A DNA stretch of 32,159 nucleotides from a virus. The notes under the pieces are model-generated. The model did no database searches. It saw only the letters and a list, made by a program, of their open reading frames with translations, and was not told the DNA's origin. How positions within the stretch are numbered: the stretch's first letter is position 1; the number at the start of each line of letters is the position of its first letter. The stretch lies in IMG/VR virus record IMGVR_UViG_3300036835_000026, positions 1-32,159 of that record. One strand, given 5' to 3'. This document shows, piece after piece, positions 1,321 through 19,480 of the stretch. Both the position numbers and the translations under genes were made by a program.

Positions 1321-1736
1321 CCGCGCAGTTTGCGAACGAGCGCGAGTTCACGCGCTGGGCGCTCAAGGAGGCGCGCAAGCGCGGCTGGCTCGCCGGTCAC
1401 TTGTCGAACATGACCGTCGTCAGGCGCAGGGACGGGCAGACGATGGCCGTCCCCGACAAGAACGCCGACGGCTTCCCTGATCTCGTGCTCGTCCACGACG
1501 AGCACGGGCTGGTCTTCGCGGAGTTGAAGATGCCCGGGCGCAAGCCCGACGAGGCGCAACTGCGCTGGCTGATCGCGCTGCGCTTGCGGGGCGAGGACGT
1601 CTACGTCTGGACGCCCGACGACGTCGACGAGATCGTCGACGTGCTCGAGGGCAGGCCGTCGTCGGCGCGGCTGTTCCCGAACACGATCGAGGCTGCTGTC
1701 GTCGCTCGGACAGCGATGCGCGAGGCGCTGCCGTGA
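1317..1736 (+). CDS. VRR-NUC-like PD-(D/E)XK nuclease
   Basis: This is a 139-aa protein. The core reads GFPDLVLVH, then VFAELKMPGRKPDEAQLRWL. D55, E69-x-K71 and Q81 match the D...(D/E)xK...Q active-site order of VRR-NUC nucleases (PD-(D/E)XK superfamily). These act on branched or structured DNA and occur as stand-alone phage proteins of about this length. The TTG start at 1317 overlaps the previous stop (TTGA), with GGAGAG just upstream. It overlaps the methyltransferase gene by 4 bases, so nuclease and methyltransferase are made together. A role in recombination or replication-intermediate processing is most likely. A restriction-like pair with the next gene is possible but unproven. Confidence 0.8.
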   Translation: MTAQFANEREFTRWALKEARKRGWLAGHLSNMTVVRRRDGQTMAVPDKNADGFPDLVLVHDEHGLVFAELKMPGRKPDEAQLRWLIALRLRGEDVYVWTPDDVDEIVDVLEGRPSSARLFPNTIEAAVVARTAMREALP

Positions 1737-2266
1737 GGCTCGCGTACGCCGACCCGCCCTACCCGGGGATGAGCGACTTCTACGTCGAGCACCCCGACTA
1801 CGGCGGCGAGATCGACCACGGCGAGTTGATCGACCGGCTGCTCAGCGAGTACGACGGCTTCTGCCTGCACACCGCGAGCGTGACGCTCGACGTCGTGCTC
1901 GCGAGCTTCCCCGGCCCGCTGCGCGATCTCGACTGCCGCGTCTGCGCGTGGGTCAAGCCGTTCGCGTCGTTCAAGAAAAACGTCACCCTCGCGTACGCCT
2001 GGGAGCCGGTCATCATCCGGCCCGCGCGCAAGGCAGTCGTCTCGCACCGCACCGTCTCGCGCGACTGGATCGCCGTCCCGATCACGATGCAACGCGGGCT
2101 GGTCGGCGCGAAGCCCGACGGCGTCTGCCGCTGGCTATTCGAGGTCATCGGGGCGCACCCGGACGACTCGCTCGACGATCTCTACCCGGGCACGGGCGCT
2201 GTCGCTCGAGCGTGGGAGGCGTGGCGGCAGCAGCCCTCGCTCTTCGACACGGAGGTCAACGCATGA
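1733..2266 (+). CDS. Small DPPY-type DNA methyltransferase-like protein
   Basis: This is a 177-aa protein with a GTG start coupled to the previous stop (GTGA). The catalytic motif IV is DPPY (residues 7-10, in YADPPYPG). The SAM-binding motif I comes last: DLYPGTG, residues 150-155. Motif IV before motif I is the permuted beta-class order of N4-cytosine/N6-adenine methyltransferases. At 177 aa it is shorter than typical restriction-modification methyltransferases and has little room for a target-recognition domain. It ends just after motif I, so it may need a partner for specificity. Similar compact proteins occur in actinophages, where they probably modify phage DNA against host restriction. 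Confidence 0.75.
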   Translation: MRLAYADPPYPGMSDFYVEHPDYGGEIDHGELIDRLLSEYDGFCLHTASVTLDVVLASFPGPLRDLDCRVCAWVKPFASFKKNVTLAYAWEPVIIRPARKAVVSHRTVSRDWIAVPITMQRGLVGAKPDGVCRWLFEVIGAHPDDSLDDLYPGTGAVARAWEAWRQQPSLFDTEVNA

Positions 2267-8259: not shown

Positions 8260-8390
8260 CCGCGCAGCCGCCTCGCGCACGCTTCGCGTCTAGACTCCCG
8301 ACCAGGCGACTCCCGACCCCTCTCGATCGTCGCGACGTCGCCGCTGACCGAGCCGTCAACGACGAAAGGATCGAGACATGGCAACCGTAG
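8256..8390 (+). CDS. Possible small basic ORF (44 aa)
   Basis: An ATG at 8256 overlaps the primase-helicase stop (ATGA). A 44-codon arginine/proline-rich frame runs to a stop 13 bases inside the next gene. The coupling matches other junctions here, and otherwise the 118 bases before 8378 would be an unusual gap. Against it, the translation is low in complexity and the segment holds a direct repeat that could be regulatory. Roughly even odds. Confidence 0.35.
   Translation: MTAQPPRARFASRLPTRRLPTPLDRRDVAADRAVNDERIETWQP
8293..8318 (+). repeat. Two 11-bp direct repeats, period 15
   Basis: The unit gactcccgacc occurs at 8293-8303 and again at 8308-8318, separated by 4 bases. The first copy is preceded by tcta, making a TCTAGA site. 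The pair lies in the only sizeable gap between genes of the early operon. It may be a protein-binding site for control of the 8378 gene, or chance duplication inside a small ORF. Confidence 0.5.
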
Positions 8391-9841
8391 GCACCCCGAC
8401 GCAGCGACCAGCCTCGAAGGGGCTGCTCGCGCTCTCGCGTCGCTTCAAGCAGGGCTACAAGCTCGAGCGAGGCGCTGGCGGGCACTGGCGCGTCCGCGAC
8501 CGCGAGGGACGTTTCGTCGAGCACGACGGACGCCCGATCACGACGTCGGGCAACCCGACCGGGGGCGTCCTCAAGGCGCTCGAACGCCAACTCGAAGAGG
8601 CGCACGTCCTCCAGGGGACGAGGGTGCGCGTCAGCGACGAAGGGAAGCAGCACCGCAACGCGGGGCTGCGCAAGCTCACCGCCGAGCGGCAGAAGCGACG
8701 CCAAGACGCAGCGAACGCGCTGCGCTCGCGCTACGCGGACGTCTTCGCGCGGATGGGTGGCCTCAACGTCCCCGGCCTCGCAGGAGACGTCGGGCGCGTC
8801 GGCGCGATCGTGCTGCGCGACATGCCGACGCAGAACGGCAAGCGGCTCAAGACGCCCGACCTGCTCACCGGGAGCGCTCACCGGATGCTGCACGGCGCAT
8901 GGGTCGAGCCAGAGTACGCCGAAGTCTGGGAGCGGCTGATCGACCATCTCGAGCACGCGGGCGACCCCGTCGGGGAGTGGTACACGCTCGTCCGTGAAGC
9001 GCGCGGCCTGCCCGCCGACAGCGTCGAAGTGCGACTGCGGAAAGACGCGCTCGACGAGTGGCCGTTCCGTGTCGAGCTTCTGCCGCTCGACGCGCTGCTC
9101 GTCGACCACGCGCACTACCAGCGGCCCGTCGGCTGGGCGTTCGTCAGACGCGAAGCAGCACGCTTCGACCCGTCGCTCGTCGGCACGATCGACGTCGCGC
9201 AGCGATCACCCTCGAGCTTCGCAGTGCTCGACGGGCAGCAGCGCGCCGAGATCGTGCGTCTCGTCGGCAAGCAGTCGATCTGGTGCTCGATCTACGTCGG
9301 CCTCGACGTCGCGAGCGAAGCCCGGTTCTTCCTGCGCAAGAACCGCGACCGCAAGACGATGCACCCCTACTACACCTTCCGCGCCGCGCTCGTGTCGGGC
9401 GACAGCGACACCGTCGCCATCAACGAGATCGTCGAGCGGCACGGGTACAAGCTCGCGATCGGAGCGCCACGAGCAGGCCGCGTCGAGAACATCGCCGCGA
9501 TCGCCGCCGTGACGACCGCGTTCGCGCGCAAGCTCCCGAACGGAACCGACACGCTCGACCCGACGCTCGACGCGCTCAAGCAGTCGACGCTCGGACGCGA
9601 GCACGGGCAAGACTCGATGCTGATCCGGGGCGTATCGGCTGCGCTCATGCAGCGCCCCGACCTCGAGCAGCCTGAGCCGTTCAAGACGCTCGTCGAGACG
9701 CTGCTGCAACTCGGCCCCGATCTGATCCTCGGCCGCGCCCGCGATCTGCGCTCGCACGGCGTCAACGGCGAGGCCGCAGTCGTGCGCGTGCTGCTCAGCG
9801 AGATCGACAAGCGCAGCCGCGCCGCGAAGAGGGCCGCGTGA
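8378..9841 (+). CDS. HicA-like N-terminus fused to ParB/DUF6551-like protein
   Basis: This is a 487-aa protein; GAAAGGA lies just upstream of the ATG. Residues about 18-75 (GYKLERGAGGHWRVRDREG ... SGNPTGG, then a helix) resemble the small HicA-type double-stranded-RNA-binding-like fold found in actinophage proteins. The central region (about 225-345) has LLVDHAHYQRP, a segment SFAVLDGQQRAEIVRLVG typical of ParB/sulfiredoxin-like proteins of the DUF6551 type, then ARFFLRKNRDRK. The family is seen on phages and plasmids; a nuclease or NTP-binding role is suspected from the ParB similarity. The C-terminus is helical. Which nucleic acid it acts on cannot be told. Confidence 0.6.
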   Translation: MATVGTPTQRPASKGLLALSRRFKQGYKLERGAGGHWRVRDREGRFVEHDGRPITTSGNPTGGVLKALERQLEEAHVLQGTRVRVSDEGKQHRNAGLRKLTAERQKRRQDAANALRSRYADVFARMGGLNVPGLAGDVGRVGAIVLRDMPTQNGKRLKTPDLLTGSAHRMLHGAWVEPEYAEVWERLIDHLEHAGDPVGEWYTLVREARGLPADSVEVRLRKDALDEWPFRVELLPLDALLVDHAHYQRPVGWAFVRREAARFDPSLVGTIDVAQRSPSSFAVLDGQQRAEIVRLVGKQSIWCSIYVGLDVASEARFFLRKNRDRKTMHPYYTFRAALVSGDSDTVAINEIVERHGYKLAIGAPRAGRVENIAAIAAVTTAFARKLPNGTDTLDPTLDALKQSTLGREHGQDSMLIRGVSAALMQRPDLEQPEPFKTLVETLLQLGPDLILGRARDLRSHGVNGEAAVVRVLLSEIDKRSRAAKRAA

Positions 9842-11113: not shown

Positions 11114-11418
11114 GCGGTAGCCTCGCAGTCGTGGGCGTCGAAGACCCGCCCCGCCTGCTCGCCCGTCGCAGCGAGATCGGCTACGTCGACCGCGTCGACC
11201 TCGCCCTGCCCGACGAACCCGAAGCAGTCCCGTTCGACTACCAGGCCCGCCTCGCACGCGAAGCCCGCAGCCGCGACCGCGACACCTTCGTCGAGCAGCG
11301 CGACACGATCAAAGCCGCGCTCGATCTGCTCGACGGGGCTGGGTTCGCCCCGATCTCGAACGACGTCCGGCTCATGCGCCGCACGCTCGAGCGGATGGAC
11401 AGGAAGCTCGTCGCATGA
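11110..11418 (+). CDS. Hypothetical protein with charged helical C-terminus
   Basis: This is a 102-aa protein; GTG coupled to the previous stop (GTGA). After a short non-polar start, most of the chain is charged and helical (YQARLAREARSRDRDTFVEQRDTIKAALDLLDG ... LMRRTLERMDRKLVA), consistent with a coiled coil or helical hairpin. It ends with an ATGA overlap into the PLP-enzyme gene. No family recognised. Confidence 0.55.
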   Translation: MSGSLAVVGVEDPPRLLARRSEIGYVDRVDLALPDEPEAVPFDYQARLAREARSRDRDTFVEQRDTIKAALDLLDGAGFAPISNDVRLMRRTLERMDRKLVA

Positions 11419-12326
11419 GCGGCATGTCGCTCCGCTACCCGCTCGAGTTCTGGCAGGCCGTCGACGCGCGCCTCGTGCGTGACGCCGACGCGCTCACCCC
11501 CATGGAGCTCCACGGCGGGCGCTGGTACAAGCGCGACGACCTGTTCATGCCGTACGACGACGTCCCGCTCTCAGGCGGCAAAGTGCGGCAAGCGATCGCG
11601 CTGCTCGTGCACGAGCGCGAGCGCATCGTCAGCGACTACGGCGGCGTCGTCTTGACAGCGACGAGCGTGCACAGCCCGCAAGGACTCATCATCGCCCGCG
11701 TCGCACACTCGCTCGCGCTCGACTGCGTCATCTTCGTCGGCGCGACGACCGTCGGCGGCGCGCTCAAGCGGCACGCGATGCTCAGGCGCGCGACCCTCTG
11801 CGGCGCGACGCTCGACGCGCGTGCCCGCGTCGGCTACGAACCCGCGCTCATGGGCGCGGCGAAGCAGTGGCAAGCCGAGCACGACGGGCACGGCTACCTC
11901 GTCAAGTTCGGGATTAACCTCGAGCAGCATCCCGACGCGATCATCGGCACCACCGCCGCCCAGGTCGCGAACCTCCCGCACGTCGTCAAGACGATCGTCG
12001 TCCCCGTCGGCGCAGGCATCACCGCAGCCGGGATCATCCTCGGAGCTGCTCGCTTCCGGCCCGACGTGCGCGTCGTCTGCGTGCAGATCAGCGGCTATGA
12101 CCGACGCGACACGATCGACCGCATAGTCGACGGCCTCGAGTACGACTGGCACGTGATCGACGACGTGCCCTACTCGAGGCTCGTCAAGCGCGCAGTCGAC
12201 CGCGATCTCACGCTCGACCCCATCTACGAGGCGAAGGCGTACGACTGGATGCTCGAGCGGCCAGAGCTTCGCGGCGAGCACGTCTGCTTCTGGGTAGTCG
12301 GGGACAGCCGACACGTACGCGCCTAA
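11415..12326 (+). CDS. PLP-dependent fold-type-II enzyme (ACC deaminase/D-cysteine desulfhydrase-like)
   Basis: This is a 303-aa protein; the ATG overlaps the previous stop, and a second ATG three codons on is possible. KRDDLF then SGGKVRQA gives the Schiff-base lysine K56 in the position used by ACC deaminase and D-cysteine desulfhydrase. The segment LTATSVHSPQGLIIARVAHSL matches the SxxxQ substrate/cofactor loop. IVVPVGAGITAAGIILGA is the glycine-rich phosphate-binding region. The length is close to the 320-340 usual for the family, with a shortened C-terminus. The enzyme would remove ammonia or H2S from an amino acid or act on a modified-base side chain. It is the last gene of the early operon, just before a terminator. 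The substrate is unknown. Confidence 0.75.
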   Translation: MSGMSLRYPLEFWQAVDARLVRDADALTPMELHGGRWYKRDDLFMPYDDVPLSGGKVRQAIALLVHERERIVSDYGGVVLTATSVHSPQGLIIARVAHSLALDCVIFVGATTVGGALKRHAMLRRATLCGATLDARARVGYEPALMGAAKQWQAEHDGHGYLVKFGINLEQHPDAIIGTTAAQVANLPHVVKTIVVPVGAGITAAGIILGAARFRPDVRVVCVQISGYDRRDTIDRIVDGLEYDWHVIDDVPYSRLVKRAVDRDLTLDPIYEAKAYDWMLERPELRGEHVCFWVVGDSRHVRA

Positions 12327-12399: not shown

Positions 12400-12732
12400 T
12401 TACTCGAGCGTGCCGTCCTCGAGCCACGCCTGATACATGCGGTACGCGCGCGCCTTCGCGTCACGGCGCAGATCGTGCAGCGAGCGCGACCCGTCACGGA
12501 TACGCCACTGCGTCGCCTTGCCCGACCGCGACCCCGGGCCGTACGGCTCATAGACGCACGACTCGAAGCGCCCGTCGCCCGGGTCGCTCGGATCGCGGGT
12601 GTGGATGCGCTCCGTGTTGTAGACGAACATCGGGCCGCGCCCCTTCTGCCAGTACGCGAAGCGCGCCTCGCGCGGCATGAGACGACGCAGACGCTCGAGC
12701 ACGTCGGGGCTGATCTCGTGAGGCTCGCTCAC
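12400..12732 (-). CDS. Hypothetical protein, last gene of the leftward operon
   Basis: This is a 110-aa protein. The GTG at 12732 overlaps the upstream gene's stop (GTGA), so the 13 further in-frame codons upstream are not used. The sequence is basic and aromatic (ARFAYWQKGRGPMFVYNTERIHTR, then YEPYGPGSRSGKATQWRIRDG) with a C-terminal helix DLRRDAKARAYRMYQAWLEDG. It may be a small nucleic-acid-binding protein. Not recognised. Confidence 0.55.
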   Translation of the reverse strand: MSEPHEISPDVLERLRRLMPREARFAYWQKGRGPMFVYNTERIHTRDPSDPGDGRFESCVYEPYGPGSRSGKATQWRIRDGSRSLHDLRRDAKARAYRMYQAWLEDGTLE

Positions 12733-13109
12733 TGCGATCGCCTCACTGCGCGCCCCGTCAGCACGTACCACGCCGCGTAGTGGCTCTGCGGGAAAGCCGC
12801 GTACAGCGCGATCCAGTCGCTCTCGCGCGCTGGCTCACGCCGAGGCGTCTTGCCGCGACGACGGTGCTCTTCGATCTCGGCCTCGATCCGCGCGCGCCAC
12901 GACGCGGGATACGCCCTCGGCGCATCATCGGGCCGCACCCAGCAGCCGAAGGCGTCACGCTCAGCACGACCCGACGCGCGCAGACGCTCGAGCGCGACAC
13001 GCGCGTCGTCGACGCTGATCCCGGCGAGCTTCGCGATCGTGCGCGCCTGACGCGGGACGTCCTGACGCTCGAGCACGACTTCGACGAGCACGACGTCGGC
13101 GGCGCTCAC
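12729..13109 (-). CDS. Winged-helix-like small protein
   Basis: This is a 126-aa protein; GTG at 13109 coupled to the HTH gene's stop. The N-terminal half (about residues 15-60) reads QARTIAKLAGISVDDARVALERLRASGRAER followed by CWVRP. This is the helix-helix-recognition helix-wing order of a winged HTH. The C-terminus (ESDWIALYAAFPQSHYAAWYVL) is aromatic and could mediate dimerisation. Together with the neighbouring 58-aa HTH protein it makes the leftward operon look regulatory. Confidence 0.55.
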   Translation of the reverse strand: MSAADVVLVEVVLERQDVPRQARTIAKLAGISVDDARVALERLRASGRAERDAFGCWVRPDDAPRAYPASWRARIEAEIEEHRRRGKTPRREPARESDWIALYAAFPQSHYAAWYVLTGRAVRRSQ

Positions 13110-13282
13110 GACGCCGCCTTGAGGATGCGCCGCACCGTCTCGACACCGAGGCCGGTCGCAGACGCGATCTCGCGCAGCGACAGACCGAGATCAGACGCCG
13201 CACGGATCGCAGCGTCACGCCCCATACGCGCAGCGTCGAGCTTCCGCTGCGCGCGCTTGAGATCACTCGACGGGGCGCTCAC
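13106..13282 (-). CDS. Small helix-turn-helix DNA-binding protein (58 aa)
   Basis: On the minus strand a GTG at 13282 overlaps the upstream stop, and its own stop overlaps the next GTG. A basic helix (LKRAQRKLDAARMGRDAAIRAA) is followed by the HTH LSLREIASATGLGVETVRRIL. This is the pattern of small actinobacterial and actinophage HTH proteins related to resolvase or sigma-region-4 helices. It is a good candidate for the repressor or activator acting at the inverted repeats at 14704-14750, upstream of its own operon. Confidence 0.75.
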   Translation of the reverse strand: MSAPSSDLKRAQRKLDAARMGRDAAIRAASDLGLSLREIASATGLGVETVRRILKAAS

Positions 13283-13695
13283 GACTCGTTCCCCGGGCCG
13301 CTCTCGTTCACGCGATCAGCGCCCCACTGGTCGGGGTACGTGAAGCCCGACTCGCGCTCGAGCATGTCTTCGTAGTGCACTTCGTACTCGAGCTTGCCGT
13401 GCCGCTCCGCGAGCGCCTCGACTTCGTGCGTCAGCGCGTCACGCCACAGTTCGCGACCCGTCTCGTCGTCGACGTCGGGCCGATCGTCGATCGTCGTCGG
13501 ATGCCAGAGCACGATCGTCACCGCGTCACGCTGCTCGTCACGCGCAGGCGCGACGTGACGCACAGGCGGCGGATCGAAGATCGCGGCGAGTTGCGTCTGC
13601 GCGAGCTTGACGCCATGCTCGACGTTGTCGAAGGCGAGCGCGCGCGTCAGCGCGTCGATCGCGACGAGGATGCTGCCCTTCTCGTGATCGCGCAT
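13279..13695 (-). CDS. Hypothetical acidic protein
   Basis: This is a 138-aa protein. The ATG at 13695 lies 2 bases after the upstream stop and is preferred over an in-frame ATG 8 codons earlier that would overlap that gene. It starts with a helical segment (SILVAIDALTRALAFDNVEHGVKLAQTQLAAIFD), continues with a strand VTIVLWHPT, and has an acidic second half ending ESGPGNES. No family recognised. Confidence 0.55.
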   Translation of the reverse strand: MRDHEKGSILVAIDALTRALAFDNVEHGVKLAQTQLAAIFDPPPVRHVAPARDEQRDAVTIVLWHPTTIDDRPDVDDETGRELWRDALTHEVEALAERHGKLEYEVHYEDMLERESGFTYPDQWGADRVNESGPGNES

Positions 13696-13697
13696 CG

Positions 13698-14633
13698 TCA
13701 GATCACCACGTGGCCGCACGCGAGCTTGTAAGCAGCGGTCGGGTCGGCAGGGTTCACGGTGAAGCGCTCGACGACGCGCTGCTCAGTGCCGCACGTGTCG
13801 CACGTGAAGCGCTCGATCGGCACGAGCATCGGTTCGCACGGGCCGCTCTCAGCGTTGCCGTCGAAGGCCTCGAAGCCGTCGGGCACGGGATCGCCCGGGT
13901 GCCAGTCGGGCGCGTAGTCGTGCGCGACGGGCCGGACGTGCAAGTTCGTGTTCGAGAAGGTCGCGTCGATCGCGCCGTGCCCGTCGTCGTACCACAGGCG
14001 CGAGTCAGGCTCGAGGCCGTTGGGGTCGAGGCCGTCTTCGGGGTAGCGCGCGATCTCGACGACGTCCATGTAGGCGTTCAGCGCGTCGAGCGGGCGCGCA
14101 GCGAGCGTCTCGAAGACGATCTCGCCCGTCGCGTCGTCGACGATCTCGTACTCGACGAGCGTGACGAGCGCGTCGGGATGCACGACGTCGGGCCGACCCT
14201 TCGCGTCGGCAAGCTCGAAGTCGAGCGCGTCACGCTCACGATCACGCTCGACGAGCAGACGCTTCGCGTAGACGATGACGGCGGCGGGGCCACCGTCGCG
14301 CACGACCTCGCGAAGCTCGTCGTCGCTCATCGCGTCGAGCACGTCACGACGCACGAAGGGGTCGTCGTCGAGCGCACGCGCGCGAGCGATCGACGCCTCG
14401 AGCGGGTTGTCGCTGTTCGCGTCGAGCAGGGGCAGCGCGACGGGCGTCTGCGCACGCTCGACGTCGCGCAGAAGCTCGCGCAGCGACGCGACGCGATGCT
14501 CAGCGGCGCTGATCTCCTGCCCGATGCGGTACTCGAGCACGCTCAGGTATTCGGGGTCACGCGGGACGTGCGTCATCGGGACGCGCAGATGCTTCGCGCG
14601 CGTCTCGATGCTCTCGATGGTGCTGGCGTTCAT
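13698..14633 (-). CDS. Hypothetical protein with C-terminal zinc ribbon
   Basis: This is a 311-aa protein and the first gene of the leftward operon. The start is supported by GGAGG four bases before the ATG. A helical N-terminus (about 30-130) includes SAAEHRVASLRELLRDVER. A middle segment reads LVTLVEYEIVDDATGEIVFETLAARPLDALNAYMDVVE. A C-terminal zinc ribbon has C278-x2-C281 (CDTC) and C306-x-H308 (CGH). The acidic, aspartate-rich composition resembles other phage hypothetical proteins. Cluster position suggests it is made together with the HTH proteins. Confidence 0.6.
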   Translation of the reverse strand: MNASTIESIETRAKHLRVPMTHVPRDPEYLSVLEYRIGQEISAAEHRVASLRELLRDVERAQTPVALPLLDANSDNPLEASIARARALDDDPFVRRDVLDAMSDDELREVVRDGGPAAVIVYAKRLLVERDRERDALDFELADAKGRPDVVHPDALVTLVEYEIVDDATGEIVFETLAARPLDALNAYMDVVEIARYPEDGLDPNGLEPDSRLWYDDGHGAIDATFSNTNLHVRPVAHDYAPDWHPGDPVPDGFEAFDGNAESGPCEPMLVPIERFTCDTCGTEQRVVERFTVNPADPTAAYKLACGHVVI

Positions 14634-15419: not shown

Positions 15420-15493
15420 GCAGCACGACGTACGTGCTCGTGGCGTTCGCCGTCACGATCGTCGTCCTCGCCTGGGCATCGACCCGACGATGA
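15416..15493 (+). CDS. Second tiny membrane peptide (19-25 aa)
   Basis: The open frame runs from a CTG overlapping the previous stop (CTGA at 15416) or, more conventionally, from GTG at 15434. It ends overlapping the HNH gene's ATG (ATGA at 15490). It encodes a single hydrophobic stretch YVLVAFAVTIVVLAWA followed by STRR. The start is uncertain because CTG starts are rare. The downstream overlap is the main support. Confidence 0.35.
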   Translation: MSSTTYVLVAFAVTIVVLAWASTRR

Positions 15494-15786
15494 GGGCACG
15501 CACCCTCTGCGCCGTCTGGGGATGCCCTGATCTCGCAGTCGACGGCTCACGCTGCGACAAGCACCGCAGACGCAGCCCGCAAGCATGGCGAACCAACGCT
15601 GAGATCGTGATCGACAGGGCAGGCGGGCACTGCGAGCGATGCAGTGCGCAAGCACCGCTCAGCGCCCATCACGTACGCGCCTTCGTCATCACTGGCCGAG
15701 AAGTCGTCGACTGCTTCGAGCTCCTCGCCCTCTGCCCCGCCTGCCAGCGACACGAGCAGCCAGCAACCCGCAGGGCCAGCAGATGA
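15490..15786 (+). CDS. HNH endonuclease-like protein
   Basis: This is a 98-aa protein; the ATG is coupled to the previous stop. An N-terminal zinc-binding set C7, C12, C22, H25 precedes an HNH-like core: C48-x2-C51, the histidine pair H60-H61 (SAHHV), and C82-x2-C85 with H88. The central asparagine usual in HNH is not obvious. Small HNH proteins near the terminase are known to support DNA cleavage and packaging in cos-type HK97-like phages. This one lies about 2 kb upstream of the terminase genes and just before a hairpin-rich stretch, which fits that role. Confidence 0.65.
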   Translation: MRARTLCAVWGCPDLAVDGSRCDKHRRRSPQAWRTNAEIVIDRAGGHCERCSAQAPLSAHHVRAFVITGREVVDCFELLALCPACQRHEQPATRRASR

Positions 15787-16117: not shown

Positions 16118-17545
16118 ATGAGCGCGATCCCCGACACCCTCGAAGCGCTGCGCGTGCCGATCGACTCGGTGCGCCCGTACGCGCGCAACCCGCGTCGCGG
16201 CTCGACGGCGCTGATCCGCGAGAGCCTCGAGACGCACGGCCAGTACCGGCCGCTCGTCGTCAACCGCCGCACGAGCGAAGTCCTCGCCGGGAACCACACC
16301 TGGCAGGCCGCGCGCGATCTCGGCTGGGCTGAGATCGCCGTCACCTACGTCGACGTCGACGATCAGACAGCGGCGCGCATCGTGCTCGTCGACAACCGCT
16401 CGAGCGATCTCGCGACGTATGACGATCGCGAGCTTGCCGATCTGCTCGCGTCGCTCGACGACTTCGACGGCACGGGCTACGTCGACGACGACCTCGCGGC
16501 GCTGCTCGAGTCGCTGCGTGACCCCGACGAGAGCGGCGACGACGACGGCGAAGAGGGCGAAGAGCGTCAGCGCTACACCTTCGACGTCTTCTCGCGCGAC
16601 GAGATCGTCGAGCGGGCGATCGCGGGGCTGCGTCAGACGGGCTTCCCGTATCGCACCGTGCCGCAGCACGTCGCGATGACCGAGATCAACGCGCTCGCGG
16701 CTCTGCCCGACGACAAGCTCGGTCACTCGAAGATCGGCTACACCGTCGCGGACACGTACCACCCGCAGCGCTTCGCCGCCCGGGTCGGCTCGCAGCGCAA
16801 CGCGATCGAGAACTTCGAGAGCGACGCGAAGCTCCGTGTCGCGCTCGAGCATCTCTTCGCGGAGTCGATGGGCTGGGGGATGCTCTGCAACCTGCTGTCG
16901 CTGACGCACGGCGCGCAGGTGCCCTTCAACTTCCGTCCCGGCTTCGCGCTGCTGCTGCTCCGTCGCTTCGCCCCGCCGGGAGCTGCGGTGCTCGACACGT
17001 CAGCCGGGTACGGCGGCAGGCTCGTCGGGTTCTTCGCGTCGCACTGCTCGTCGTATCTCGGCGTCGACCCTGCGACCGTCACGCAGGACGCGAACGCGCG
17101 CCTGATCGCTGACCTCTGCCCCGCGTCGAAGCAGGCCGACTTGATCCGCGCCCCGGCCGAAGACGTCGACGATAGGCCGCTGCGCGAGCGCTTCGACGTC
17201 GCGATCACGTCGCCGCCGTACTTCTCGAAGGAGCGCTACAGCGACGAGCCGACGCAGTCGTGGAAGCGCTACCCGACCCCGAACGAGTGGCGCGCGGGCT
17301 TCCTGCATCCGATGCTCGCCTTGCAGTACGCCGCGCTCAAGCCCGGATGCGTCTCGGCCGTGAACGTGACCGACGTCAAGATCAAGGGCAAGACGCTCCC
17401 GCTCGTCGACTGGACGCTCGAGGCGGCTGTCGCTGCTGGCTTCGCGGTCGAAGGCGTCGAAGAGATGCCCTTCAACCATCGCTGGGGGTCTGAGATGCAG
17501 GGCGAGATCGTGACCGAGCCGCTGCTGGTGCTGCGCAAGCGATGA
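16118..17545 (+). CDS. ParB-domain/DNA methyltransferase fusion
   Basis: This is a 475-aa protein; the ATG at 16118 follows GGAAAA. Residues about 10-95 are ParB/sulfiredoxin-like (VPIDSVRPYARNPR ... LAGNHTWQAARDLGW, with G58-N-H60). An acidic linker (about 120-150) leads to a segment (150-260) with HVAMTEINALAALP and SKIGYTVADTYHP that I do not recognise. A class-I methyltransferase follows: motif I DTSAGYGG (293-300), then YLGVDP, and catalytic SPPY (365-368), as in N4-cytosine/N6-adenine enzymes. ParB-methyltransferase fusions are common in phages and prophages and are thought to modify DNA. The order I before IV differs from the permuted enzyme at 1733. It ends overlapping the small terminase start (ATGA). 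Confidence 0.8.
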   Translation: MSAIPDTLEALRVPIDSVRPYARNPRRGSTALIRESLETHGQYRPLVVNRRTSEVLAGNHTWQAARDLGWAEIAVTYVDVDDQTAARIVLVDNRSSDLATYDDRELADLLASLDDFDGTGYVDDDLAALLESLRDPDESGDDDGEEGEERQRYTFDVFSRDEIVERAIAGLRQTGFPYRTVPQHVAMTEINALAALPDDKLGHSKIGYTVADTYHPQRFAARVGSQRNAIENFESDAKLRVALEHLFAESMGWGMLCNLLSLTHGAQVPFNFRPGFALLLLRRFAPPGAAVLDTSAGYGGRLVGFFASHCSSYLGVDPATVTQDANARLIADLCPASKQADLIRAPAEDVDDRPLRERFDVAITSPPYFSKERYSDEPTQSWKRYPTPNEWRAGFLHPMLALQYAALKPGCVSAVNVTDVKIKGKTLPLVDWTLEAAVAAGFAVEGVEEMPFNHRWGSEMQGEIVTEPLLVLRKR

Positions 17546-18072
17546 GCGTGCGCTGCTCGCAGCAGACAGCGAAGGGCGAGCCGTGCCGCGCGTACGTCGT
17601 GCGCGGCTCTGATCGCTGCTCAGCGCATCTCGGCCGCGTCGGGCGTCCGACGCTGCTCGACGACAGCGTCGCAGCGAACGTCGTCACGATGCTCCGCGCC
17701 GGGAACTACTTGAACGTCGCGACGCGCGCGGCCGGGATCGGGATGCAGACCTTCCGCGACTGGCTCAAGCGCGGCGAGTCGTCGAAGCCCGCCGACGCCC
17801 CGTACCGCGACTTCCGCGCTCGCGTCGAGCGCGCCCGCGCAGAGGGCGAGGCGCGCATGGTCGGCGTGATCGCGCGCGCAGCGCAGGAAGGCGACTGGCG
17901 CGCAGCGCTCGCGCTGCTCGAGCGCGAGTTCCCCGACAGATGGGGGCCGGTCAGCGTGCGCGTGCGCGAGATCGAGCCGCCGCCCGAGCCTGATCTGCCC
18001 GTCGAAGACGAAGACGACCCGTTCCGCGAAGTGATCGACCTTGCGTCACGACGGCGAGCACGGGTCGGGTGA
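17542..18072 (+). CDS. terS: Terminase small subunit
   Basis: This is a 176-aa protein; the ATG overlaps the previous stop. An N-terminal zinc-binding set (C5, C15, C26, H29) precedes a helix-turn-helix-like segment (VVTMLRAGNYLNVATRAAGIGMQTFRDWL, about residues 47-75). A helical oligomerisation region follows (FRARVERARAEGEARMVGVIARAAQEGDW), then the LLEREFPDRWG signature. This is the usual small terminase layout: it recognises the packaging site and loads the large subunit. The added zinc module might help DNA binding. It overlaps the large subunit gene by 32 bases. Confidence 0.8.
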   Translation: MSVRCSQQTAKGEPCRAYVVRGSDRCSAHLGRVGRPTLLDDSVAANVVTMLRAGNYLNVATRAAGIGMQTFRDWLKRGESSKPADAPYRDFRARVERARAEGEARMVGVIARAAQEGDWRAALALLEREFPDRWGPVSVRVREIEPPPEPDLPVEDEDDPFREVIDLASRRRARVG

Positions 18073-19480
18073 GCTTGGCACTTTCGCGCGCTTCTGCCTC
18101 GGCTTGCCGCTCGAGGTCGGATCGCCGCTCGTGCTCGAGAGCTTCCAGCACGACATGCTCGTCGACTACTTCGACGGCGTCGTCGAGACGCTGATCCTGC
18201 TCCCGAAAAAGAACGGGAAGACCACCCTCTTAGCGGCGCTCGCGCTGTACCACGTGATCGTCACGTCAGACGCCGAGTGTGTGATCGGCGCAGCGTCGCG
18301 CGATCAAGCGTCGATCCTCTACGAGCAAGCGGTCGGCTTCGTCAAGCGCTCGAGCTACTTGCAGCGGCTCGTCGTCGCGAAGCGCGGCTACCGCGAGATC
18401 AGAGCACGAGAGGGCGGCGGGCGTATCCGCGTGCTCGCCGCAGACGTCGACACGGCCGACGGGATCATCCCGACGCTCGCGCTCGTCGACGAGTTGCATC
18501 GCCACAAGTCGGCGGGGCTGTACGGCATCTTCCGCGACGGCCTCGGCCCGCGTCACGGGCAGATGGTGACGATCTCGACGGCCGGGGATCACGAGCGCAG
18601 CGTGCTCGGTCAGATGCGCGCAGCAGCGCGCAAGCTTCCCGGCCTCGAGCAGCACGGCAAGTACCTGCACGTGCGCACCGTCGACGGCTCCTTCGCGATG
18701 CACGAGTGGGCGCTTGAGCGCGACGACGACGTCGAGAACCTCGCGCTCGTCAAGCAGGCGAACCCGGCCTCGTGGCAGACGATCGAGCAGTTGGCGAAGC
18801 GGCTCAAGTCGCCGTCGACGCTGCCGTGGCAGTGGGCGCGCTTCGCGTGCGGCATCTGGACGGGCGCGGAGATGTGGTGGGTGCGGCCCGAAGACTGGGA
18901 CGCGACGTCGAACCTCAACGGCCTCGCGCACGGCGATCTCGTGACGCTCGGCTTTGACGGCTCACGCTACGGCGACTCGACGGCGCTCGTCGCGTGCCGC
19001 CACGACGACGGCTACGTGCAGCTCCTGGGCGTTTGGGAGTCGCCCCGTGGGATACGCGAGTGGGAAGTCCCGGCCGGGGAAGTCGACGCAGCAGTCGCGC
19101 GGGCGTTCGAGACGTACCGCGTCTCGCGCATGTACGCCGACCCTCCGCTCTGGCAGACCGAGATCGACTCGTGGGCGCGCGACTTCGGCCAGGACGTCGT
19201 CGTGCGCTACCCGACGAACCGCTCGCGCTTTATGGGCGCGCTCGAGCGCTTCCGCACCGACGTCGCGTCGGGGATCGTCCCGCACGACGACGACGAGCGG
19301 CTGACCCGACACGTCTTGAGCGCGCAGACGCGCGAAGTGCGCGGCGGCTACTGGCTCGAGAAGGCGACAGCCGCAGACAACATCGACGCCGCAGTCGCGA
19401 GCGTGCTCGCGTACGAAGCCCGAAGCGACGTGCTCGCGTCGGGCTGGCGTCCCCGATCGAAAGTGCCGGTGAGCTTCTGA
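18041..19480 (+). CDS. terL: Terminase large subunit
   Basis: This is a 479-aa protein. The TTG at 18041 is the first possible start in frame and lies inside the small-subunit gene. The ATPase has Walker A LLPKKNGKT (K60) and Walker B ALVDELH (D150, catalytic E151). The nuclease domain has the aspartates D306 (GFDGSRYGD), D367 (MYADPP) and D446/D449 (DNIDAA). It is the packaging motor that cuts and translocates DNA into the prohead. A rare TTA leucine codon at 18230, just after Walker A, is the only TTA codon I noticed in the window's genes. Confidence 0.9.
   Translation: MRHDGEHGSGELGTFARFCLGLPLEVGSPLVLESFQHDMLVDYFDGVVETLILLPKKNGKTTLLAALALYHVIVTSDAECVIGAASRDQASILYEQAVGFVKRSSYLQRLVVAKRGYREIRAREGGGRIRVLAADVDTADGIIPTLALVDELHRHKSAGLYGIFRDGLGPRHGQMVTISTAGDHERSVLGQMRAAARKLPGLEQHGKYLHVRTVDGSFAMHEWALERDDDVENLALVKQANPASWQTIEQLAKRLKSPSTLPWQWARFACGIWTGAEMWWVRPEDWDATSNLNGLAHGDLVTLGFDGSRYGDSTALVACRHDDGYVQLLGVWESPRGIREWEVPAGEVDAAVARAFETYRVSRMYADPPLWQTEIDSWARDFGQDVVVRYPTNRSRFMGALERFRTDVASGIVPHDDDERLTRHVLSAQTREVRGGYWLEKATAADNIDAAVASVLAYEARSDVLASGWRPRSKVPVSF

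Follow-up and report, generated by a model that had tools for sequence, protein, structure and literature searches.

The window, that is the whole stretch of DNA analysed here, is a linear virus record of 32,159 bases with a GC content of about 69%, possibly a fragment. Its PLP gene (Table 1) is a single intact ORF with an ATG start codon that shares bases with the stop codon of the ORF before it (ATGA). The predicted protein scored 50.9 bits with Pfam PALP (cut-off 35) and matched phrog_3650 (E=2e-36) and phrog_7093 (E=2e-15). The GC content by codon position was 0.71/0.44/0.90, full-length relatives from three viral loci (L023-L025) shared 65-67% identity with the protein, and a simple, crude Nei-Gojobori count against these relatives gave a dN/dS of about 0.4-0.48. 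Together with an AlphaFold2 model of pLDDT 91.4, these observations indicate that the gene is not a chance ORF. The motifs quoted in an earlier note on this DNA, namely SGGKVRQ with K56, SVHSPQG (residues 84-90) and VPVGAGITAAG (residues 196-206), are all present, and the assignment to the fold-type-II PLP enzymes is borne out by the PALP score and by a Z score of 23.9 between the model and 1j0a. PADLOC returned no match for the protein, a plasmid search gave no near match, and a single-sequence phmmer search of the PDB found nothing; a profile search did give matches.

Table 1. Positions of the features in the window.
Feature	Position	Strand	Basis or remark
Short methyltransferase-like protein	1733..2266	+	DPPY and C-terminal DLYPGTGAV motif; no Pfam or PHROGs match
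Second ParB-like protein, DUF6551 family	8378..9841	+	39.4 bits, cut-off 26.8
Fold-type-II PLP enzyme, 303 aa	11415..12326	+	Class III phage DNA-modification PLP family; catalytic K56
ORFs of 311, 146, 126 and 123 aa between the PLP and ParB–methyltransferase genes	12400..14633	-	Two of them tested: no PHROG or Pfam match
HNH-like small ORF, directly upstream of the ParB–methyltransferase gene	15490..15786	+	Sequence inspection
ParB-CTPase-like domain fused to N4/N6-type DNA methyltransferase; predicted functional partner	16118..17545	+	Pfam ParB_N; phrog_723/498
Probable terminase small subunit, which follows the ParB–methyltransferase gene both here and in L024/L025	17542..18072	+	Order, homology; no Pfam hit
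Terminase large subunit	18041..19480	+	Matches annotated actinophage terminases

In fold, the PLP model comes closest to the ACC deaminase homologue 1j0a and to Salmonella D-cysteine desulfhydrase (Z ~23.5). In a profile of 51 relatives, K56, S87, Y271 and E272 of the window protein correspond to the catalytic lysine, S78, Y294 and E295 of ACC deaminase. Residues K56, S87, P88, Q89, Q183, G199 and G210 are invariant in these relatives, and the alignment of K56 with the ACC deaminase lysine marks it as the Schiff-base lysine. The shared fold (Z 22-24) and most of the catalytic residues are what would be expected of an auxiliary metabolic enzyme that acts on ACC or D-cysteine, as the earlier note had considered, and alters host metabolism. 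However, the identity to both enzymes is 17-22%, and the scores lie far under the curated NCBIfam cut-offs: 11.3 versus 392 bits for ACC deaminase (TIGR01274), and 35.8 versus 289.4 (TIGR01275) and 15 versus 469 (PRK03910) for D-cysteine desulfhydrase. The asparagine of the ACC deaminase SNQ loop (N79 equivalent) is replaced by the invariant Pro88, and the protein does not qualify as an ACC deaminase equivalog. As no metabolic gene context was seen in any locus examined and the gene has a DNA-modification context instead, a metabolic role appears very improbable and is not supported.

Both matching PHROG families contain PLP enzymes of phages with hypermodified thymidines. Orf00226 of ViI belongs to phrog_3650 (E=2.5e-241) and gp052 of M6 to phrog_7093 (2.2e-159), and profile alignment of the window PLP family gave probabilities of 100% with the ViI-type proteins and 98.8% with M6 gp052. 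Homology to these two proteins and linkage to DNA-modification genes, described below, place the window protein in the hypermodification PLP family. Known PLP-using phage hypermodifications start from 5-hydroxymethyluracil and need several enzymes. For ViI and M6, PLP decarboxylation steps leading to an amine were reportedly proposed by Lee et al. 2018/2022; decarboxylation by a fold-type-II PLP enzyme would be unusual. The DNA of M6 contains 5-NedU and that of ViI 5-NeOmdU (PMC6449724), and the PP35 'PLP enzyme' ORF169 was named among the 5-hmdU transformation genes (PMC6336734); its annotation in PP35 is putative threonine ammonia lyase. The Ackermannviridae PLP proteins of the 5-NeOmdU pathway, represented by ViI orf00226 (phrog_3650), are homologous to the window protein over 268 columns (26% identity, E=7e-56) and have the catalytic lysine, the SPQ loop and the YE.K motif in common with it. 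In M6, the 5-NedU pathway includes gp052 and the radical SAM protein gp053. Gp052 is homologous to the window protein but carries SKA in place of the SPQ signature, M6 has a thymidylate synthase, and, unlike M6, the window has no radical SAM partner. PLP enzymes of this fold had been called uncommon in phage genomes, which needs qualifying, as the Ackermannviridae-type member matches 346 phage records and relatives were found in 260 virus contigs.

These 260 relatives came from an alignment-based scan of viral contigs; 80 were kept and named phages were added. Single-protein scans of viral contigs with the PLP proteins of the window and of Vincenzo gave no new relatives, and a profile scan of genome contigs with a four-sequence alignment found no prophage relative. 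Mycobacterium smegmatis is the host of the PLP-carrying phages Vincenzo and AlanGrant, and Pseudanabaena that of Pam4. With HMMs built from neighbouring genes, the 80 metagenomic-virus loci and the named phages fell into three nearly exclusive partner classes. In class I, a radical SAM protein homologous to M6 gp053 is encoded about 1 kb upstream, small ParB genes are frequent, and the PLP gene and the terminase follow. In class II, the PLP gene is accompanied by genes for a P-loop kinase and an amino acid:DNA transferase (Pfam ADDT), and in many cases also for a Tet_JBP (TET-like) oxygenase. Class III, to which the window belongs, is defined by a ParB–N4/N6-type DNA methyltransferase, or its methyltransferase part, adjoining the PLP protein or fused with it. 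ParB genes were found in classes I and III and in part of class II. Asp268 marks class III (18/19), whereas His occupies this position in classes I and II and in the Ackermannviridae; the aligned ACC deaminase also has Asp.

Of the 45 non-duplicate loci flanked by 2.5 kb or more on each side, 43 have a modification partner. As for the remaining two, L023 lies on a contig that ends 3.5 kb after the PLP gene, and L022 is a phage whose PLP protein groups with the Ackermannviridae and whose modification genes are scattered in its genome. Together with the homology to the ViI and M6 proteins, this linkage indicates that the earlier idea of an amino-acid-derived DNA base was largely right, and a DNA-modification role of the window PLP enzyme is well supported. 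On a maximum-likelihood tree of the PLP proteins (63 rows), the five labels need 5 changes compared with a shuffled mean of 29.9, a contrast inflated by near-copies. Vincenzo, which carries the class III gene pair, sits inside class II, indicating that pairing of a PLP enzyme with a ParB–methyltransferase arose at least twice. The tree gives no settled branching order among the window clade, class I and the Pam4 clade; thus, we do not claim separate origins for the window and Pam4 class III clades, and Vincenzo is the only clearly separate class III lineage.

The class III partner in the window combines methyltransferase motif I (VLDTSAGYGGR) with motif IV (TSPPY, which fits the pattern [TS][SC]PPY), the motifs of an amino-group (N4/N6) methyltransferase. 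It gave no Pfam methyltransferase match, and its C-terminal part shares 28% identity with a Vibrio phage protein annotated as N-4 cytosine DNA methylase. The two methyltransferases and two ParB-like proteins listed for this genome in the earlier note are present, but one of each turned out to be domains of this single protein. In L024 and L025, whose PLP proteins are 65-66% identical to that of the window, an orthologue of the ParB–methyltransferase (55-57% identity) directly follows the PLP gene, and the two consecutive genes are followed by terminase and portal genes as in the window. An ORF similar to the HNH-like ORF lies downstream of the PLP gene in L023. Elsewhere the two proteins are fused. 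In Pam4, L071, L088, L090 and L097, the PLP domain is inserted into the methyltransferase between motifs I and IV, while L072 and L073 show the order PLP–ParB–methyltransferase; among the fusions, both the domain arrangement and the methyltransferase type thus exist in two versions. A structure prediction of the Pam4-type fusion of L090 from four sequences was of low confidence (pLDDT 65, pTM 0.41), and the domain geometry is not readable from it. The PLP lineage is therefore tied to ParB–N4/N6-type methyltransferases by adjacency in the nearest relatives of the window and by gene fusion in others. Against a pairing in the window itself stands the distance of 3.8 kb between the two genes, filled with mostly minus-strand ORFs of unknown function. 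In the class III members checked (L019, L020, L071, L073 and L090), the methyltransferases of the Vincenzo/Pam4 type carry a variant SAM motif, DPFAGGS (DPFAGGP in Vincenzo), compared with the usual DPFxGxG.

Modification cassettes occupy a slot beside the terminase, which in the window is marked by the large subunit gene. In cluster B mycobacteriophages, the stretch from the ParB gene to the terminase is a modular modification slot: Rinkes and West99 have PreQ0/dpdA (deazaguanine) genes there, and Vincenzo has the PLP gene. An annotated adenylate kinase gene precedes the terminase in cluster B (L019 2559-3152; L102 4892-5506) whether the slot has PLP or PreQ0 genes; in Vincenzo, Pfam identifies the protein as Ploopntkinase3. 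Such modularity would also accommodate two independent protective modifications that merely share a slot, a simple N4/N6 methylation and an unrelated PLP step using genes outside the window. ParB–methyltransferases without a PLP gene are common, so the methyltransferase may simply methylate while the PLP enzyme acts elsewhere, and since the window is only part of a genome (32 kb), further partners could be encoded beyond its ends. We nevertheless consider this explanation improbable, as fusions have formed in two arrangements with two methyltransferase types and no other partner was detectable in the complete genomes of Vincenzo and Pam4. The frequency of ParB–methyltransferases without PLP indicates that the PLP enzyme is an addition to an existing system.

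For the usual donor genes, Vincenzo and Pam4 offer complete genomes, the window and most of the contigs being incomplete. ViI-type phages have genes for hmU formation and an amino acid:DNA transferase. HMUDK_hel and thymidylate synthase were confined to Montesquieu and L091 among 26 records. The Pfam ADDT model PF18724 was insensitive and missed Montesquieu, and a transferase model (A5) was rebuilt from 10 sequences. It finds Montesquieu, L059 and Vibrio phage 207E48.1; it gave no hit in the window, in Vincenzo and Pam4 or in any other class III record, where TET, radical SAM and CmoA proteins did not turn up either. The complete genomes of Vincenzo and Pam4 yielded no HMUDK_hel, thymidylate synthase, transferase (A5), TET, radical SAM or CmoA protein, and no dUMP hydroxymethylase, 5-hmdU kinase or amino acid:DNA transferase was found in these genomes or in the window, a fragment of 32,159 bases. 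As refinements of the original idea, the predicted partner of the PLP enzyme is specifically the ParB–methyltransferase, and the thymidine machinery was detected neither in the window fragment nor in the two complete class III genomes. With none of the usual donor genes in the complete genomes, SAM is the only donor implied by the module itself.

Taken together, we regard it as likely that the window PLP enzyme acts in DNA hypermodification together with the ParB–methyltransferase. As to the exact chemistry, we infer a series of steps in which the ParB domain would load or clock the enzyme on DNA and the methyltransferase fold would alkylate an exocyclic amine with a SAM-derived group. The probable target is N4 of cytosine, because the TSPPY/SCPPY motif is typical of N4-cytosine enzymes. 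The PLP enzyme would then convert the amino-acid moiety that has been attached, most likely decarboxylating it to an amine in line with the proposals for ViI and M6, and the product would protect the phage DNA from host restriction. The simplest specific version, which we regard as rather unlikely, is a minimal two-protein system in which the 3-amino-3-carboxypropyl group of SAM is attached to the base and then decarboxylated, or in which SAM itself undergoes decarboxylation beforehand. Either order would yield an N-(3-aminopropyl) base, aminopropyl-cytosine or -adenine, without a hydroxymethyl handle, kinase or amino acid:DNA transferase.

The roles of the domains could also be distributed differently. 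The ParB-like domain might be a serine kinase like SbnI/SerK that produces O-phosphoserine. The PLP enzyme, acting upstream, would use this product for a beta-replacement in which a base bound by the methyltransferase-fold domain contributes its exocyclic amine, a reaction as catalysed by SbnA with glutamate. The structural neighbours of the model include SbnA (Z 19.9), which is of fold type II and catalyses beta-replacement, and this explanation would fit the distribution of ParB genes over the three classes. Moreover, SerK has the ParB fold, and fusions with ParB, such as those of the DUF6551 family, bind CTP or ATP (PMC12704722). Yet ACC deaminase and D-cysteine desulfhydrase (Z ~24), not synthases, are structurally closest, motif I of the methyltransferase appears usable for SAM, and class II presumably relies on a separate transferase to place the amino acid. 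This distribution of roles is thus improbable, and alkylation from SAM followed by PLP-dependent conversion remains our preferred sequence of events.

There are precedents for single elements of this proposal. Methyltransferase folds of phages are able to attach an enlarged SAM group that serves as a handle for hypermodification, frequently together with a ParB protein, although no N4 or N6 candidates were reported (PMC12783734). The CmoA–CmoX–CmoY carboxymethylcytosine system described there resembles our proposal in combining a methyltransferase fold with an enlarged SAM group as handle. CmoX, however, is a C5 enzyme using carboxy-SAM, whereas class III has an N4/N6-type methyltransferase with a PLP partner, and no CmoA was found in class III records. 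The domain pairing of the window ParB–methyltransferase is the same as in the phage ParB–N6_N4 methyltransferase fusions surveyed recently, in a text without mention of a PLP or pyridoxal partner (PMC12704722). Thus, the PLP family was already known from ViI and M6 and the ParB–methyltransferase fusions from that survey, while no description of the pair was found in the literature searched, with subscription literature outside reach. The pairing suggests a type of DNA modification that is as yet uncharacterised. If our interpretation is true, the combination of a PLP enzyme with a ParB–N4/N6 methyltransferase, as a pair or as one fused protein, would represent a different and much shorter route than those starting from 5-hydroxymethyluracil, possibly to a new base, and would suggest a catalytic role for ParB–methyltransferase fusions left unexplained in recent surveys. 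This is directly testable, as the Pam4-type fusions join the PLP enzyme and the methyltransferase in one polypeptide.

A ParB(s)–radical SAM–PLP–terminase cassette, with an M6 gp053-like radical SAM protein, is conserved in L012 (8250-10675), L014, L016, L017 and some 26 further loci. Five of these contigs (49-65 kb) were tested and gave no thymidylate synthase, HMUDK or transferase; the cassette is possibly another route to a modified base. In L055-L059, L065, L070, L075, L080, L082, L085 and L089, the PLP gene lies in operons with an amino acid:DNA transferase, a P-loop kinase and a Tet_JBP-like oxygenase; six such records tested contained no thymidylate synthase. This composition suggests amino-acid hypermodification of a hydroxymethyl base made by the TET enzyme, perhaps from cytosine.
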